The position numbers and the translations under genes were made by a program. A stretch of DNA of 21,371 bases from a virus: the IMG/VR virus record IMGVR_UViG_3300038701_001456, positions 1-21,371 of that record; one strand, 5' to 3'. Within the stretch, counting starts at the first letter, position 1. Every line of letters starts with the position of its first letter. Shown in pieces: positions 504-9,261 of this stretch. The notes beneath the pieces are model-generated. The model was given only the letters and a program-made list of their open reading frames with translations. It was not told where the DNA came from and did no database searches.

Positions 504-1024
504 TATTTAGTGTTTTTTAAGCTATTTAATAAATCCTTCTCAAATGCTCTTGTTAATTTATCTTTTATCAAAGGTCTCTGCTCTTTAGCGATTCTATCCA
601 TAAACCCACTACCCTTGTAGTTATATTTTTTTAATAAACCTTTCTGACTTATAGATTTAGCTATCCTAAAAACCATTCTATCATACTCAGTTGTTTTTCC
701 TTTGCCTTTATACTTAGCGAATGTAGAATTACCATAACTATTCTTTACTAATGGTCTAATTCCTTTTGCTTCAGCCCATTCTCTAATTCTTTTTATTTTA
801 CCAAAGCTATTCCTACTTGACTTAGCTCTACTAGCACCGCTGTTTAAGGCTTTTGCGTATTCGTTAGCGTATATGTTTAACTCATTCACTAGTCTTTTAT
901 ATCCAAAAGACTTATCCAACTCTCCAGTAGCTTTAAATCCTTCTACGCTAGCCTCTCTTTTAAGCCTTGTAACAATATCTTCACCGATTTCTTCTAATGC
1001 GTTGTTTAGGTTTGGTGTTTCCAT
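503..1024 (-). CDS. HK97 gp10-like tail-completion / head-tail joining protein
   Basis: A 173-aa basic protein with no membrane segment. I chose ATG 1024 (METPNLNNAL), which overlaps the upstream stop as TAATG; a TTG two codons earlier is also possible. The N-terminal half has the pattern of HK97 gp10-like proteins: an amphipathic helix (residues 5-25), a TGELDKSF segment matching the family's 'TG.L..S' motif, then a beta segment and YAKALNSGAS, which corresponds to the family's 'YA..lE.G' motif. The C-terminal half is Lys/Arg-rich helix. Such proteins cap or complete the tail at the neck. The assignment rests on motif resemblance and on neighbouring tail genes; another minor tail protein remains possible. 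Confidence 0.55.
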   Translation of the reverse strand: METPNLNNALEEIGEDIVTRLKREASVEGFKATGELDKSFGYKRLVNELNIYANEYAKALNSGASRAKSSRNSFGKIKRIREWAEAKGIRPLVKNSYGNSTFAKYKGKGKTTEYDRMVFRIAKSISQKGLLKKYNYKGSGFMDRIAKEQRPLIKDKLTRAFEKDLLNSLKNTK

Positions 1025-1482
1025 TAACAAATGCTTATGCCGTTTTTAACCTGTATTGTAACATTTAACTCATATCCAGCTAATACATTGCTAAATCTGT
1101 CTATAAATGGCGTTAGTGTTGGTGTTGTTGTGACTTGGTAATAATCCTTAAATAAATCACCTCTCATCATTAATGAAACTAGCCTATTACCAACCTCGAA
1201 TTGAGTATTTAGTGCATCTTGTAAGTTATTGTTACCATAAAAATCATCACCTTCTGTTTGCTTGTTGTTTACATCAACTAAGTCAGCCATTATAACTTTA
1301 ATATCAAACTCTATAATATTCTTTAAATGCCTTGCATCACCTAGAACAATATGTGATAAGGGGAATATTGTTGTTTTATCTAAATCAACATCAGACACAT
1401 CTCCAAAAGTAACTGTGTTTACACCCACAGTGTTTCTAAGCGTCTCTTTAAGTGTATCTAATATTCTATAAATGTGATTCAT
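1024..1482 (-). CDS. Probable tail terminator / neck protein
   Basis: A 152-aa soluble protein. Its ATG (1482-1480) overlaps as TAATG the stop of the -1 frame of the upstream gene, not the stop of that gene's zero frame. Its own stop overlaps the gp10-like gene the same way. An N-terminal helix (IYRILDTLKETLRN) is followed by alternating beta strands and a central helix near 'NTQFEVGNRLVSLM'. This size and layout fits tail terminator proteins, which stop tail-tube growth, and the position next to a gp10-like gene agrees. No diagnostic motif is visible, so the name is an inference from fold pattern and synteny. Confidence 0.45.
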   Translation of the reverse strand: MNHIYRILDTLKETLRNTVGVNTVTFGDVSDVDLDKTTIFPLSHIVLGDARHLKNIIEFDIKVIMADLVDVNNKQTEGDDFYGNNNLQDALNTQFEVGNRLVSLMMRGDLFKDYYQVTTTPTLTPFIDRFSNVLAGYELNVTIQVKNGISIC

Positions 1483-1742
1483 TATTTTAGGCTTAATTTC
1501 ATTAACTTATTCTCTAACTCATTCTTTTCTTTCTCGTACTCAAGATACATCATACATTGGTGTAATGGAAGTCCTGTAACTTCATCAATCTTTCTAACAT
1601 CTCCCTTTGCGAGAGTATAGATTGCTTGATATCCTCCCCATTTCTTTCCGAAGGATTGTCTGATTGATTCTCCTCTTTCTCCTGTAACTGTTGTAGTGTA
1701 TAATCCAGAGTATAAATCCCTAATTTTTTCGCTAAATTGTAA
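1482..1742 (-). CDS. -1 frame extension of the tail chaperone gene (gpGT analogue)
   Basis: From the T-run the -1 frame stays open from codon 1742-1740 to TAA 1484-1482, giving 86 residues. A -1 shift after codon 171 would yield a 257-aa fusion. The extension looks like real protein: a Gly/Trp/Tyr-rich segment FGKKWGGYQAIYTLAKGDVR, then a KIDEVTGLPLHQC segment and a charged coiled coil (YEKEKNELENKL). It has no ATG, GTG or TTG codon until an ATG ATG pair at 1553-1548, only 23 codons from the end. Its stop forms TAATG with the next gene. Both facts favour frameshifting over an independent start. An internal non-standard start or an indel artefact are the alternatives. Confidence 0.7.
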   Translation of the reverse strand, partial: LQFSEKIRDLYSGLYTTTVTGERGESIRQSFGKKWGGYQAIYTLAKGDVRKIDEVTGLPLHQCMMYLEYEKEKNELENKLMKLSLK

Positions 1743-2254
1743 AAAAAAACCCTTGCTCCAAAAACAACATCTAAAGGTGTATCCCTCATAACCTCAGCCA
1801 TAAAGTCAGTGCCATTATAGTCGTGTATCAAGTATCCTTGCTTATTCTCAAATGATATAGGTCTATACAGAACAGCCATAGCTCTATGAAGGTTCTCCTC
1901 ATCGTAAATATATCTCTCTAAATCTTCATATTCACCATAGGTCATTTTATCTAGGTTTGGTATTAATCCAAAATGAACAACCTTACCATCAGTTCCTTTT
2001 AAGGAAAATTTATCAACCCTATTACACTTTGTGTTAAGAACACTTGTTATATGCTGTAATAACACATCTATAGTGCTTACTGGCAATTTATGTATGTCTT
2101 TAATAGGTGTATTGCAAAATATCTCTATTGTTTTTAGGTTTAAGAATGTATCGTCATTATTATCTTTATTCTTCTCTAATATCTTATGATACTTCTGCCA
2201 TTGAGATAGTTTTACAGCTCTTAAAGTTTGCGGTACTTCTAAATTTACTTTCAT
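1550..2254 (-). CDS. Tail-assembly-chaperone-like protein, zero-frame product (gpG analogue)
   Basis: The unshifted product is 234 aa and starts at ATG 2254, the first gene of the leftward structural operon. Conserved-looking parts are YGEYEDLERYIYDEENLHRAM (around residues 107-127) and the adjacent AVLYRPISF, a pattern I associate with a protein coded just before tail genes in Bacteroidetes phages. At codon 171 the frame crosses a run of nine T (1749-1741 read leftward) after GGG. The zero frame continues 63 more codons to TGA at 1552-1550, with a Gln/Glu-rich tail. The -1 frame is open for 86 codons. This G/GT arrangement is typical of tail assembly chaperones, which bind the tape measure protein during tail assembly. 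The family name is inferred, not proven. Confidence 0.6.
   Translation of the reverse strand: MKVNLEVPQTLRAVKLSQWQKYHKILEKNKDNNDDTFLNLKTIEIFCNTPIKDIHKLPVSTIDVLLQHITSVLNTKCNRVDKFSLKGTDGKVVHFGLIPNLDKMTYGEYEDLERYIYDEENLHRAMAVLYRPISFENKQGYLIHDYNGTDFMAEVMRDTPLDVVFGARVFFYNLAKKLGIYTLDYTLQQLQEKEENQSDNPSERNGEDIKQSILSQREMLERLMKLQDFHYTNV
1741..1752 (-). other. Candidate -1 ribosomal frameshift (slippery) site
   Basis: Read leftward, GGG is followed by nine T. In the zero frame (AGG GTT TTT TTT TAC) this contains T TTT TTT, which fits the X XXY YYZ slippery rule. A -1 shift here leads straight into the 86-codon extension. The homopolymer could also allow polymerase slippage. I did not find an obvious downstream pseudoknot by eye. 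Confidence 0.6.
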
Positions 2255-2589: not shown

Positions 2590-3126
2590 ATGAAATACAA
2601 CAAAGAAAAGGCAGATGATTTAGCTAAAGAGTTTATGGAGAAAACAAATATAAACGTATTCTCAAAATCTAGGAAGGCAGAACAGGTGTTTTTAAGAACT
2701 TTATTCTATAAAGTGTTAGTCCACTATAATAGAATGATTGACAAAGATATAGAGGAATGGTACAAAGAACATGGAGTGTCTAAAAACAGAAGTTCTATAT
2801 ACATTGCGCTTACTAAGATAAATATGTATTATAAGATAAATGATAATTTTAGAGATGCTTATGATATGTACTTTAAAGATAAGCTAAAGAAGAGAATTGC
2901 TTTAGAGAAGGCAAAGATAAAAGCACTAGATGCTATCAAAACAGATAGAGTTAAATCGCCTAAGAAATATAAAGATGCTTTAGATTTACTTATAGATAGC
3001 ATTGAGTTTGATAAAAGAAAAGAGATATATGACCTAGTCAGTTTAAGAGTGAAATCTTGGGAATGGAAAGCAAAAGACAAGTGTCAAGTAATTGAAGGTT
3101 ATAGCCCATTGGAAGGAGCATTTTAA
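2590..3126 (+). CDS. DnaA C-terminal-like helix-turn-helix protein
   Basis: A 178-aa basic, mostly helical protein. Residues about 26-88 follow the layout of the DnaA domain IV (Bac_DnaA_C) HTH: SRKAEQVFLRTLFYKVL matches the family's 'R+...Y+AR' helix, a middle helix ends in EEWYKEHGVS, and KNRSSIYIALTKINMYYKIN matches the 'RDHSTVlhA..ki' recognition helix. The classic Asp-His-Ser is replaced by Arg-Ser-Ser. Such small phage proteins are presumed DNA-binding, in replication initiation or regulation. The C-terminal 90 residues are Lys-rich helix of unknown role. Family membership is my reading of the pattern and should be confirmed by profile search. Confidence 0.5.
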   Translation: MKYNKEKADDLAKEFMEKTNINVFSKSRKAEQVFLRTLFYKVLVHYNRMIDKDIEEWYKEHGVSKNRSSIYIALTKINMYYKINDNFRDAYDMYFKDKLKKRIALEKAKIKALDAIKTDRVKSPKKYKDALDLLIDSIEFDKRKEIYDLVSLRVKSWEWKAKDKCQVIEGYSPLEGAF

Positions 3127-3157
3127 GTATTATAAATAAAATTTTAAAACAAGTATT

Positions 3158-3322
3158 ATGAAAACAACATGGAAAATTAGAAACGTTAAGAAAACGACTA
3201 TTGATGATGAATACACTGAAGTAACTTTTAAAGATTACAGAGGTGAGTGGACTGTTAAATTAGATAATCCTAGACACTTTATAGAGGATTTAGATAAGTT
3301 TGCTAACTATAAAGGATTGTGA
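3158..3322 (+). CDS. Small hypothetical protein
   Basis: A 54-aa frame from ATG 3158 to TGA 3322, 31 bp after the DnaA-C-like gene. It is charged and looks coding: MKTTWKIRNVKK, a strand-rich middle (TEVTFKDYRGEWTVKL) and a C-terminal helix (FIEDLDKFANY). No membrane segment or known motif. Its regular amphipathic pattern and placement in line with its neighbours support a real gene; the function is unknown. Confidence 0.5.
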   Translation: MKTTWKIRNVKKTTIDDEYTEVTFKDYRGEWTVKLDNPRHFIEDLDKFANYKGL

Positions 3323-3387
3323 TAAATTTAAAGCTAAATAAAATAACAGAAAAGAAATGAAACACAAAAAAGAGATTTACGAAAAAA

Positions 3388-3594
3388 ATGAAACGTAGAG
3401 ACTTTGGAGAAAGTATGTGTGATGAAACTAAATTAAAGGTGTTAAACTTTGTTGAACTACAATTGCGTTTACACAATGCTAGCCAACAACGTGAATTGTT
3501 AATTGCGTATAATTTGGATTTTTACAAAGGAATACACGATGTAACTTTAGAACATATAGAACAAAAAGTAGATAAATACCTTAGCAATTTATAG
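3388..3594 (+). CDS. Small hypothetical protein
   Basis: A 68-aa mostly helical protein. The first ATG (3388) is used; a second in-frame ATG at residue 10 (3415) would give 59 aa. It contains a long helix (KLKVLNFVELQLRLHNASQQ) and a C-terminal helix (LEHIEQKVDKYLSNL). No domain recognised. It ends just before a TAACGGAnnnGTATA motif that also flanks a cassette-like gene at 11.8 kb, so it may lie at the edge of an inserted segment. Confidence 0.45.
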   Translation: MKRRDFGESMCDETKLKVLNFVELQLRLHNASQQRELLIAYNLDFYKGIHDVTLEHIEQKVDKYLSNL

Positions 3595-3612
3595 TGGCTA
3601 ACGGAAAAGTAT

Positions 3613-3822
3613 ATGAAATTTAAACGGATAGATATGATAGATTTTGGAAAATACAAAGGTAAAAGTTTTGAATACGTTTTAAACGAGTTGGAGGATTACT
3701 CTTACTTGGTTTGGATGAATGAAATAGGTAAGAAAGTTCCTAATAATATATTTAATGAAGCGTTTAAAATGTATCAAAACGAATTAATAACACCAAGTAC
3801 TAATGAATTACTTAATGGGTAG
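3613..3822 (+). CDS. ExoX-like C-terminal domain (DUF3820-type) small protein
   Basis: A 69-aa protein. Residues about 9-36 carry the pattern of the small domain found at the end of ExoX-type exonucleases and in DUF3820 proteins: IDFGKYKGKSFEYVL, then YSYLVWM, corresponding to 'fGKykGk...d....YL.W'. Here the domain stands alone without a nuclease domain, so it probably binds nucleic acid or a partner rather than cutting. The ATG lies inside the motif TAACGGAAAAGTATATG (3599-3615), suggesting the gene may have arrived as a cassette. The domain match is fairly clear; the role is unknown. Confidence 0.5.
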   Translation: MKFKRIDMIDFGKYKGKSFEYVLNELEDYSYLVWMNEIGKKVPNNIFNEAFKMYQNELITPSTNELLNG

Positions 3823-7073: not shown

Positions 7074-8276
7074 ACACCACTTCTAGCACCTTGAGCTAAA
7101 TACATTAAAGCATATCTTATAGCATCCATAAAGTGGTCAAAACCTACTGCTGGTTTTTCCCCTTTGTCTTTCCAAGTATAATTATTTAACTCCCTTATAA
7201 TACCTAAAGAGTTTTTATCAACTATTATCTCATAATCCTGCATTAAAGCAATACCAGATAATATACTACCTGCTTTCTTTATGGTTGGTTTTATATTTAT
7301 ATCAAGGTTTTTAAGCTCTTTAATAAGTCTCGGTTCTGAATTATCACAAATTATCAAATCCATACCGCACGCTTTCTTATTCTCTCTAGCTATGTCAGAA
7401 GTATTTAAGTTGGTTTTACCATAAATCTCCTTAACCCACATCTTTCTAGCGTTCTTATCTATAGAAACTTTTACTAAAGTTGTTAAGTCATTAGAGAAAC
7501 CAAAATCCTGCCCATAACAGGTTAAATCTGTTTGGATAAAATTACCTGTTCTCCAGTTCTTAATTATAGTACCTTCGGCCTTCTCTTTCCATCCACCTAG
7601 AATCTGAGTAACATATTTTTCTGGATTCCTAGACTTTATGTTCATAATAGTCTTCAAGAAAGACTCTTCTAAGTTATTAAGGTTGTCTTTATAGGTGGTA
7701 TGTATGTATGTAGCATCACCTTTGGTGGTATTTGAACCAGCTTTAACCTGTGAATCCCTAAAAAACCTTTTATATATCCAATGCTCTTTTGTAGTTGGGT
7801 TTAATATCAATATAACTCTGTTCTGAACATTTTTAACACGAACAGATAAGTCTATCTTATCAAACGTAGGCTCGTCAGTCAACTCCTCTGCTTCATCAAC
7901 AACAAATGCAGTAATACCATTAAGAGATTTAAGAGCAGCGGTTTGATTACCAGAAGAAGTACGAATACCTTTAAATATAATAGACGAACCTGTAGTAAGG
8001 TTCATTATCTCATCCTTAGTTATCCTAAAATCAGAGTGTTTATCTAATATATCTATCTTCTCAATAAACTCTGGAATAATAGATGTAGCTGCTGAAATCA
8101 TAGTATATCTGGTGAATAAAACCTTTTCACCTTTTTGATAAGTAAGCAACAACAGTCTTAAAGCTACGCTAAAAGACTTTCCAGAACCACGGTCAGCGAC
8201 CCCCAGTTACAACGAAATACCTTGATTCCGATGTAAAAAGGGGTCTGTATTTTTCATTTATACCTAATCCATTCAT
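7058..8276 (-). CDS. terL: Terminase large subunit, interrupted in Walker A by 7 bases and a TGA
   Basis: TerL cuts concatemeric DNA and pumps it into the prohead. The N-terminal piece starts at ATG 8276 (ATGA overlap with the HNH gene): MNGLGINEKYRP...YFVVTGGR, 27 aa, then TGA at 8195-8193. The rest continues in the +1 frame: RGSGKSFSVALRL, the Walker B/catalytic segment ITAFVVDEAEEL, then the nuclease acidic residues in QDFGFSNDLTT, LIICDNSEP and GFDHFMDAIRYA. Joined without the 7 extra bases it gives about 403 aa and the expected P-loop GGRGSGKS. As written, a +1 shift would give GGRDRGSGKS. All other motifs are intact over about 375 codons, so the gene looks functional and under selection. 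Options are recoding (+1 shift or ribosome hop), a recent loss-of-function indel, or an assembly error. Confidence 0.85.
8189..8204 (-). other. Candidate recoding site inside the terL P-loop
   Basis: Read leftward: GGGGG T CGC TGA C CGT GGT. The 5' part codes up to Arg (CGC), then stop TGA followed by C. The 3' frame resumes at CGT, also Arg. A +1 shift at CGC-TGA-C parallels the prfB site (sense codon, UGA C, purine-rich stretch upstream). A 7-nt hop from CGC to CGT would restore GGRGSGKS exactly. GGTC-GCT-GACC can form a small hairpin. Confidence 0.45.
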
Positions 8277-8857
8277 AATAATTTTCCTAATTTTCTTAAC
8301 TTATATGTACTTATTCCAGTTTCTTTTTCTGCTTGCCTAATAGAATCATAAACAACATTATTATACTCTATCTTGTGTCCATGTAGCTTTCTTTTATAAT
8401 CTAAAAACTCTTTAGAGTGTTTCATTCCGTAGGCAGGATTTAATTTACCTGTTCTTCCATACATTCCATTCTTTTCTCCTTTTGTAGCCTCACTAATCTT
8501 TTTTCTAACATCAGGTCTTTTCGCAGGATTATTATTTCCTTTCCATTTTTTAGATTGATACTCTCTTAATTCAGCGTACTTCTTGCTATCTCTATAACTT
8601 GAATTTATGTTATTATTCATTAAGTGGAATGCAACAGAAGAAGGTTTGTCTTTATAATGTAGAAACAATAAATAATGAGCTAGATAATGTTCTCTAGCAG
8701 TTAATAACACTAAATTATCATCACTATCTGTTCCACCCATCCATCTTGGTACTATGTGATGTGATTCGTAATAATTCCCATCACCCTTAAATCTATCCAT
8801 ATTTTTTCTTGAATAACACAAGTCATTATGTATATCAAGTTTAGTTCTACTTTTCAT
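8273..8857 (-). CDS. Free-standing HNH homing endonuclease
   Basis: A 194-aa protein of the HNH intron/free-standing homing endonuclease type. The HNH core spans residues about 30-62: YYESHHIVPRWMGG with His33/His34, Asn48 in DDNLVLL, and His57/His61. It is followed by NUMOD3-like DNA-binding motifs (NNPAKRPDVRKKISEATKG, GMYGRTGKLNPAYGMKHS) and a C-terminal IENR1/NUMOD1-like segment (VYDSIRQAEKETGISTYKL). It lies between terS and terL, overlapping terL by ATGA and 15 bp from terS, so it is a mobile insertion in the packaging operon. Such enzymes nick or cut a site in alleles that lack them, often in a neighbouring gene; the altered terL P-loop next door is the obvious candidate. Confidence 0.85.
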   Translation of the reverse strand: MKSRTKLDIHNDLCYSRKNMDRFKGDGNYYESHHIVPRWMGGTDSDDNLVLLTAREHYLAHYLLFLHYKDKPSSVAFHLMNNNINSSYRDSKKYAELREYQSKKWKGNNNPAKRPDVRKKISEATKGEKNGMYGRTGKLNPAYGMKHSKEFLDYKRKLHGHKIEYNNVVYDSIRQAEKETGISTYKLRKLGKLL

Positions 8858-8871
8858 TTAACTGAACTTCT

Positions 8872-9261
8872 TTACTCATCCTTATCTTCTTCTGGAGTTA
8901 CATCAATTATCTTATCTTTTACTTTTTGTTCTACATCTGTAGAATTAAAGAAATTTATAACAGGAGCGTTATTTGTTACTCTAGTGTCTTTCTCCTCTTC
9001 GTAAGCAAAGTCAGTTAATAGCTTCATGTGGTTATATGAGCCTTTCTTAGCTGCTTTTGCTAATGATTCAAACATTTCTACCTCTGAACCAAAAACATTC
9101 TTTATAGCCTTCTTAGCGTAAGCCTTTCTTCTGCTTCTTTTGGCTTTATTAAGCGCAGGTTTATTGCTTCTTTCTATTTCTGGTGGTTTTTGAATAGGTA
9201 TTGACTTCTTTCTTTTATTACCTCTTCTACCATCTGTCTTTTTAATTTCATCTGAACCCAT
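8872..9261 (-). CDS. terS: Probable terminase small subunit
   Basis: A 129-aa very basic protein directly before the HNH/terL pair. TerS recognises phage DNA and loads TerL. The N-terminus is Lys/Arg/Pro-rich and disordered-looking. Residues about 50-85 form helices (KAYAKKAIKNVFGSEVEMFE, SLAKAAKKGSYNHMKLLTDF) in the style of small subunits or their partners in Bacteroidetes phages. A short hydrophobic segment, APVINFF, precedes an acidic tail (EEDKDE). There is no clear HTH. The name depends largely on position upstream of terL; the helical core supports it. Confidence 0.55.
   Translation of the reverse strand: MGSDEIKKTDGRRGNKRKKSIPIQKPPEIERSNKPALNKAKRSRRKAYAKKAIKNVFGSEVEMFESLAKAAKKGSYNHMKLLTDFAYEEEKDTRVTNNAPVINFFNSTDVEQKVKDKIIDVTPEEDKDE

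Follow-up and report, generated by a model that had tools for sequence, protein, structure and literature searches.

The gene for the large terminase subunit (terL) in the window, i.e. the whole stretch of 21,371 bases analysed in this study, is interrupted inside its Walker A motif by a gap of seven nucleotides, which is very probably skipped by programmed bypassing of the ribosome and probably arose and was kept as a destroyer of an endonuclease site. The window corresponds to one metagenomic virus record of IMG/VR and has a G+C content of 29%. Related phages and metagenome-assembled genomes (MAGs) point to Bacteroidota as hosts, and the phage is of a marine type. In total, 14 distinct interrupted lineages (the window and at least 13 others) were found alongside 41 plain ones.

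To our knowledge, T4 gene 60 had until now hardly any counterpart among programmed bypasses in bacteria. The 14 lineages of minimal bypass sites of 6 to 8 nt share a simple design of hairpin, CGN codon, stop codon and second CGN codon, and such sites would open comparative and experimental studies of how ribosomes are released from the mRNA and land on it again. Furthermore, the terL gaps would connect bypassing more generally to the conflict with homing endonucleases, and automatic annotation will label many functional terL genes as broken.

The interrupted terL gene of the window

The gene product has domain matches to Terminase_3/Terminase_3C, as expected of the large subunit, and its P-loop region reads ...TGGR-TGA-C-RGSGKS..., so that one protein, whose gene is plain in relatives, is split by the gap into two ORF pieces (Table 1). 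The 7-base insertion has three equivalent placements (CGCTGAC, GCTGACC and CTGACCG), and the single base C at 8192 separates TGA from the landing codon. The first-pass annotation had described terL as broken in Walker A by seven extra bases. This break is real, as equivalent interruptions occur in five lineages that were found by means of the adjacent HNH gene. The overlap of this HNH gene with the terL start was also described correctly: its stop codon and the start codon of terL share the sequence ATGA at 8273-8276. With respect to the roughly 375 codons noted after the gap, the frame is indeed intact and under selection (dN/dS about 0.05), the exact length being 377 codons. Stop codons of the window's genes comprise TAA (21), TGA (6) and TAG (4); since all three terminate genes, no stop codon is reassigned. 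The product of the probable terS gene had no family match in domain and family searches.

Table 1. Features of the interrupted terL locus in the window
Feature	Position	Strand	Basis
5' piece of terL, 27 codons MNGLGINEKYRPLFTSESRYFVVTGGR, followed by TGA 8195-8193	8193..8276	-	ATG 8276-8274; N-terminus matches plain terL genes in position and sequence
Take-off codon CGC (Arg27), last codon of GGR	8196..8198	-	CGA or CGC in 14/14 lineages
Stop codon TGA immediately 3' of the take-off codon	8193..8195	-	Stop at the same place in 14/14 lineages
7-nt coding gap CGC TGA C, inserted relative to plain terL genes	8192..8198	-	Comparison with plain terL genes
Landing codon CGT (Arg), first CGN triplet past the stop	8189..8191	-	Sequence
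3' part of terL from RGSGKS... to the stop 7060-7058, 377 codons	7058..8191	-	Terminase_3 and Terminase_3C
Predicted 5' stem-loop in terL mRNA, 18 bp, about -23 kcal/mol	8198..8245	-	RNA folding
Free-standing HNH homing endonuclease gene	8273..8857	-	NUMOD3; PHROG 655 'homing endonuclease'
Probable small terminase subunit gene (terS)	8872..9261	-	Position: directly upstream of terL in relatives

Recurrence of the gap and the hairpin preceding it

All 79 relatives with a readable site that were found by terL similarity showed the plain P-loop GGRG[S][GS]KS, and a search by terL only would have suggested an artefact. This picture was overturned by using the adjacent HNH gene as query, which led to five further lineages with the gene order terS-HNH-terL (L082/L091, L090/L099, L100/L101, L103/L104 and L105), each of them interrupted at the same codon. 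The search for relatives with and without the gap and the HNH gene, which the first-pass annotation had proposed as a check, thus separated interrupted loci (5/5 of those found by HNH) from plain ones (0/41 interrupted among the loci found by terL, dereplicated, as all lineages here, at 90% nucleotide identity). Pattern scans added L113/L119, L116, L118, L120, L126, L128, L134 and L150. Such scans are biased toward the pattern, the 6-nt and 7-nt scans requiring CGN codons, whereas the finds based on HNH are free of this bias and had no such requirement. An exact search for the window's 25-mer gave no second copy, no gapped prophage was found in 395 Bacteroidia genomes, and short DNA queries revealed no gapped cultured relative. 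MT836376, Leeuwenhoekiella phage Arctus_1 and MW202573 were rejected as gapped relatives, being unrelated or plain, and chance matches account for L135-L149 and L151, which came from the scan for long gaps, and for several pattern-scan hits.

The gap is CGATAA (6 nt) in nine lineages, CGCTAA (6 nt) in L118, CGCTGAN (7 nt) in the window, L103 and L134, and CGCTGACC (8 nt, CGC TGA CC) in L150. Lengths of 6, 7 and 8 nt represent all three reading frames, and the flanks of L118 (6 nt, TAA) and L150 (8 nt, TGA CC) are closely similar. In every lineage, the first CGN after the stop is the landing codon, and skipping to it restores GGRG[S][GS]KS exactly. Take-off at CGC or CGA is matched by landing at CGT or CGA in 13 lineages, and L128 shows the pair CGA and CGG. 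Repeat assemblies carry the gap in L090/L099, which are 100% identical over 4,423 bp, and likewise in L100/L101 and L103/L104. On the terL tree, the interrupted state is polyphyletic with 10 changes, at least seven of which are forced by supported branches.

Folding of the 60 nt before the take-off codon predicted a hairpin in 14/14 interrupted terL genes, and one as strong in 0/41 plain lineages. In the predicted fold, the GGGGG immediately ahead of the take-off codon pairs with a C-rich arm lying some 40 nt upstream; in the window, the arm GACCCCU (8239-8245) is predicted to pair with GGGGGUC (8198-8204), and the stem extends to the initial base of that codon. Among the 13 lineages scored together, the distance between the 3' end of the hairpin and the take-off codon is -2 to +2 nt. 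Minimum free energies range from -16.8 to -27.4 in interrupted genes compared with a mean of -10 and a best value of -16.6 in plain ones, the two ranges being disjoint (p=1.5e-8). Shuffling of synonymous codons abolishes the hairpin, with z-scores of -3.6 to -8.0 for interrupted and -2.6 to +1.8 for plain genes. Stem sequences vary between lineages, and selection appears to act on the predicted structure rather than on the sequence; this view rests on folding of each sequence, the registers differing by lineage so that column covariation is uninformative. No Rfam match was obtained in the four sources tested. GGGGG precedes the take-off codon in 13/14 interrupted and 3/41 plain lineages (p=5e-9), and one of these 13 had been found via a GGGGG pattern. 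We regard this run primarily as the 3' arm of the hairpin, with an additional Shine-Dalgarno (SD) role being possible.

The downstream frames are intact over 366-379 codons wherever the contig is long enough, and the RG[S][GS]KS codons are preserved in interrupted genes. Between interrupted sisters, dN/dS downstream of the gap is about 0.05 and similar to that of plain pairs (dN 0.058 and dS 1.14 for L100/L113; dN 0.13 and dS 2.2 for L103/L134). The 5' piece is likewise under purifying selection in interrupted pairs, and its N-terminal peptide shows conservation in plain relatives too. A second full-length TerL, named beforehand as an observation that would speak against recoding, was not encountered: each of the 15 records searched, including those of 31 and 36 kb, contains a single Terminase_3 match, and in genes with an in-frame gap this match spans the TAA.

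Homing endonucleases beside terL

The HNH gene of the window has conserved residues H33/H34, N48 and H57 and intact HNH and NUMOD domains. A NUMOD3-HNH gene is located directly upstream of the gapped terL in seven lineages (the window, L082, L090, L100, L103, L105 and L134), a GIY-YIG gene in L116 and a weak T5orf172-like gene in L118, while 5/14 interrupted terL genes have no nuclease directly upstream. All 41 plain lineages lack NUMOD3-HNH at terL, and every window-type HNH gene adjoining terL is accompanied by the gap. This association with HNH and GIY-YIG genes suggests a role of the gap in protecting the P-loop against homing endonucleases.

Judged by identity comparison, the HNH gene is mobile, with a history discordant with that of terL: L090 and L082 share 95% identity over 75 aa in terL and 64% in HNH, and the window and L100 share 69% in HNH and 54% in terL. 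As the comparison of L113 with L100 shows, the gap persists after loss of the nuclease.

Further nuclease-like genes were observed in the neighbourhood of terL. In L134, whose gapped terL has an upstream HNH gene, another ORF that matches HNH weakly lies directly downstream (2424-2939). An ORF of the MUG113 type (GIY-YIG-like) follows directly downstream of the gapped terL of L120, which has no upstream nuclease (958-1914, minus strand), and L119 carries a weak GIY-YIG-like ORF (3248-3634) 1.3 kb upstream of its gapped terL that is missing near terL of the close relative L113. At the terS-terL junction of the plain lineages L016, L025 and L031, an AP2-like HNH gene was recognised by eye. Such genes next to plain terL, together with the five interrupted lineages that have no nuclease directly upstream, speak against a protective role of the gap. 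In two of the plain lineages, L016 and L025, AGG occurs with RGSSKS, which may be an alternative, recoded escape from cleavage.

Stop-hop model, alternatives and known systems

In the proposed mechanism, peptidyl-tRNA-Arg would sit on CGC while a stop codon occupies the A site, with the stable stem-loop re-forming directly behind the ribosome. The tRNA would then release CGC, the mRNA would slide forward, and re-pairing at the nearest CGN codon downstream, the CGT 7 nt away, would yield exactly GGRGSGKS. As the gaps fall in three frames but the product GGRG[S][GS]KS is constant, no single mechanism other than a hop can account for all lineages. CGT, CGC and CGA are decoded by one tRNA-Arg with the anticodon ICG. 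The landing codon CGG of L128, which is not expected to be read by this tRNA, is a point against the hop. Stop-hops without stimulators, as in the synthetic constructs of Weiss et al. from 1987, are reportedly inefficient. The hairpin would provide the force that pulls the mRNA, in analogy to T4 gene 60, for which the 5' stem-loop has been proposed to pull the mRNA and to initiate bypassing (PMC5009743). After a slide of 6-8 nt, the basal G arm may still be located inside the mRNA channel, and for this reason the motor model is quantitatively insecure. Homing endonucleases, i.e. the neighbouring HNH enzyme and GIY-YIG enzymes in relatives, would be directed at the conserved codons for the P-loop in terL; the gap would destroy their recognition site, and hopping would keep TerL functional. 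The sequences themselves show a gap that recurs in all three frames between matched Arg codons, a hairpin in front of it, continued purifying selection and a single terL in each record. From these features we infer the hop itself, its efficiency and the pulling role of the hairpin, and from the association with nuclease genes the endonuclease target.

Frame-specific recoding, i.e. readthrough of the 6-nt type and a prfB-like +1 shift at CGC TGA in the 7-nt type, each adding two P-loop residues (R-X-R), is improbable. The 6-nt type does stay in frame, and CGC TGA C/A with GGGGG upstream superficially resembles prfB, a parallel also drawn in the first-pass annotation. However, two or three mechanisms would have to act at one site, the 8-nt version in L150 requiring a third, and the 6-nt and 8-nt versions contradict the +1 shift as a general solution. 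Re-pairing from CGC to GCT would be very poor, GGGGG is accounted for as the 3' arm of the hairpin, and a stem-loop 5' of the stop is no readthrough signal. The two additional residues between GG and RGSGKS would moreover break the Walker A spacing, which is constant in all plain relatives.

It is equally doubtful that the gap is removed from the RNA or that TerL is supplied by a helper or a separate gene. The hairpin beside the gap and the fragmentary nature of most records would agree with this reading, but 6-8 nt are too small for known introns and the Rfam searches in four sources gave no match. The larger records also hold one terminase each, and the N-terminal piece and the P-loop codons are still under selection.

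Decay of terL, in which defective phages would carry a recent knock-out from imprecise repair of an endonuclease cut, is very unlikely. The adjoining homing endonuclease and the lethality of a P-loop change without recoding would agree with it, but not the common design in 14 lineages, the long intact downstream frames with preserved P-loop codons, the low dN/dS between interrupted sisters and a hairpin selected at synonymous sites. A sequencing or assembly error, conceivable for a single metagenomic virus record, can practically be dismissed, as the feature occurs in independent contigs, samples and lineages and is identical across repeat assemblies.

For the stop-hop, the closest known system is T4 gene 60/mobA. 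The first-pass annotation had suggested a miniature analogue of this gap beside a homing endonuclease, and the pairing of HNH and gap, the three frames with matched Arg codons and the 5' stem-loop strongly support this suggestion. T4 gene 60 features matched codons, a stop after take-off, a 5' stem-loop and a homing endonuclease (PMC5009743, PMC3014915). The terL sites likewise combine matched take-off and landing codons, a stop directly after take-off and a stem-loop adjoining the take-off codon with a location in a conserved phage enzyme gene, an HNH gene nearby and a plain gene in relatives. They differ in gap length (6-8 nt vs 50), in the codons used (Arg CGN vs GGA), in the gene affected (Walker A of terL) and in their recurrence in 14 lineages with at least seven forced state changes. 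Unlike T4 gene 60, the terL gap, being too short, contains no internal stem-loop or SD, which we see as variant features of the long T4 gap, inessential to bypassing in general. The window's HNH shares the HNH and NUMOD3 make-up and the PHROG of free-standing T4-like HNH endonucleases (Mob/PHROG 655), but it is about 32% identical to full-length T4-like hits and sits at terL.

Synthetic stop-hops, in which nine nucleotides of CGN-stop-CGN specify one amino acid (Weiss et al. 1987; PMC5009743), have the same arrangement as the 6-nt terL type; those were artificial constructs, whereas the terL sites are natural and have a 5' hairpin. According to a review of 2016, no natural in-frame stop-hop was known (PMC5009743). 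The terminase of Streptomyces phage phiHau3 is a candidate bypass that has been linked in print to UUA decoding (PMC5009743, ref. 161). We found AAG GGT TGG GGC-TTACYCC-GGT AAG GAC with a 10-nt gap in phiHau3, GreenWeasel and BroPlease (L155, L157 and L158), compared with AAG GGC TGG GGC AAG GAC in the plain relatives phiScoe10 and Alsaber. As at the terL sites described above, the gap falls within Walker A of TerL and is flanked by matched codons, but it involves Gly codons, UUA instead of a stop in the A site and 10 nt, and it occurs in actinobacterial phages with another TerL family and without a homing endonuclease directly upstream. On balance, we lean towards the broader view that homing endonucleases and phages clash repeatedly over the P-loop codons of terL, where gaps of 6-10 nt in many unrelated phages, phiHau3 included, disable endonuclease sites and are skipped by hairpin-driven hops; these would represent the first natural programmed stop-hops.

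Some minor observations concern individual contigs. In L121 (2456-4539), from another terL family, the P-loop reads GGR-TAA-RGSTKS (CGT TAA CGC), and a short stem reaches up to the take-off codon, so that L121 is tentatively a fifteenth case. Further down, its terL is split by a NUMOD4/HNH_3 endonuclease, possibly within a group I intron, although this candidate had no Rfam hit. L086 (PBGL02000003.1), a contig with a phage terL, was assigned to a MAG labelled Euryarchaeota; its relatives, however, are phages of Bacteroidota, and misbinning is probable. Just past terL, L126 contains a second fragment resembling the terL C-terminus (2972-3163), perhaps a duplication or recombination scar.
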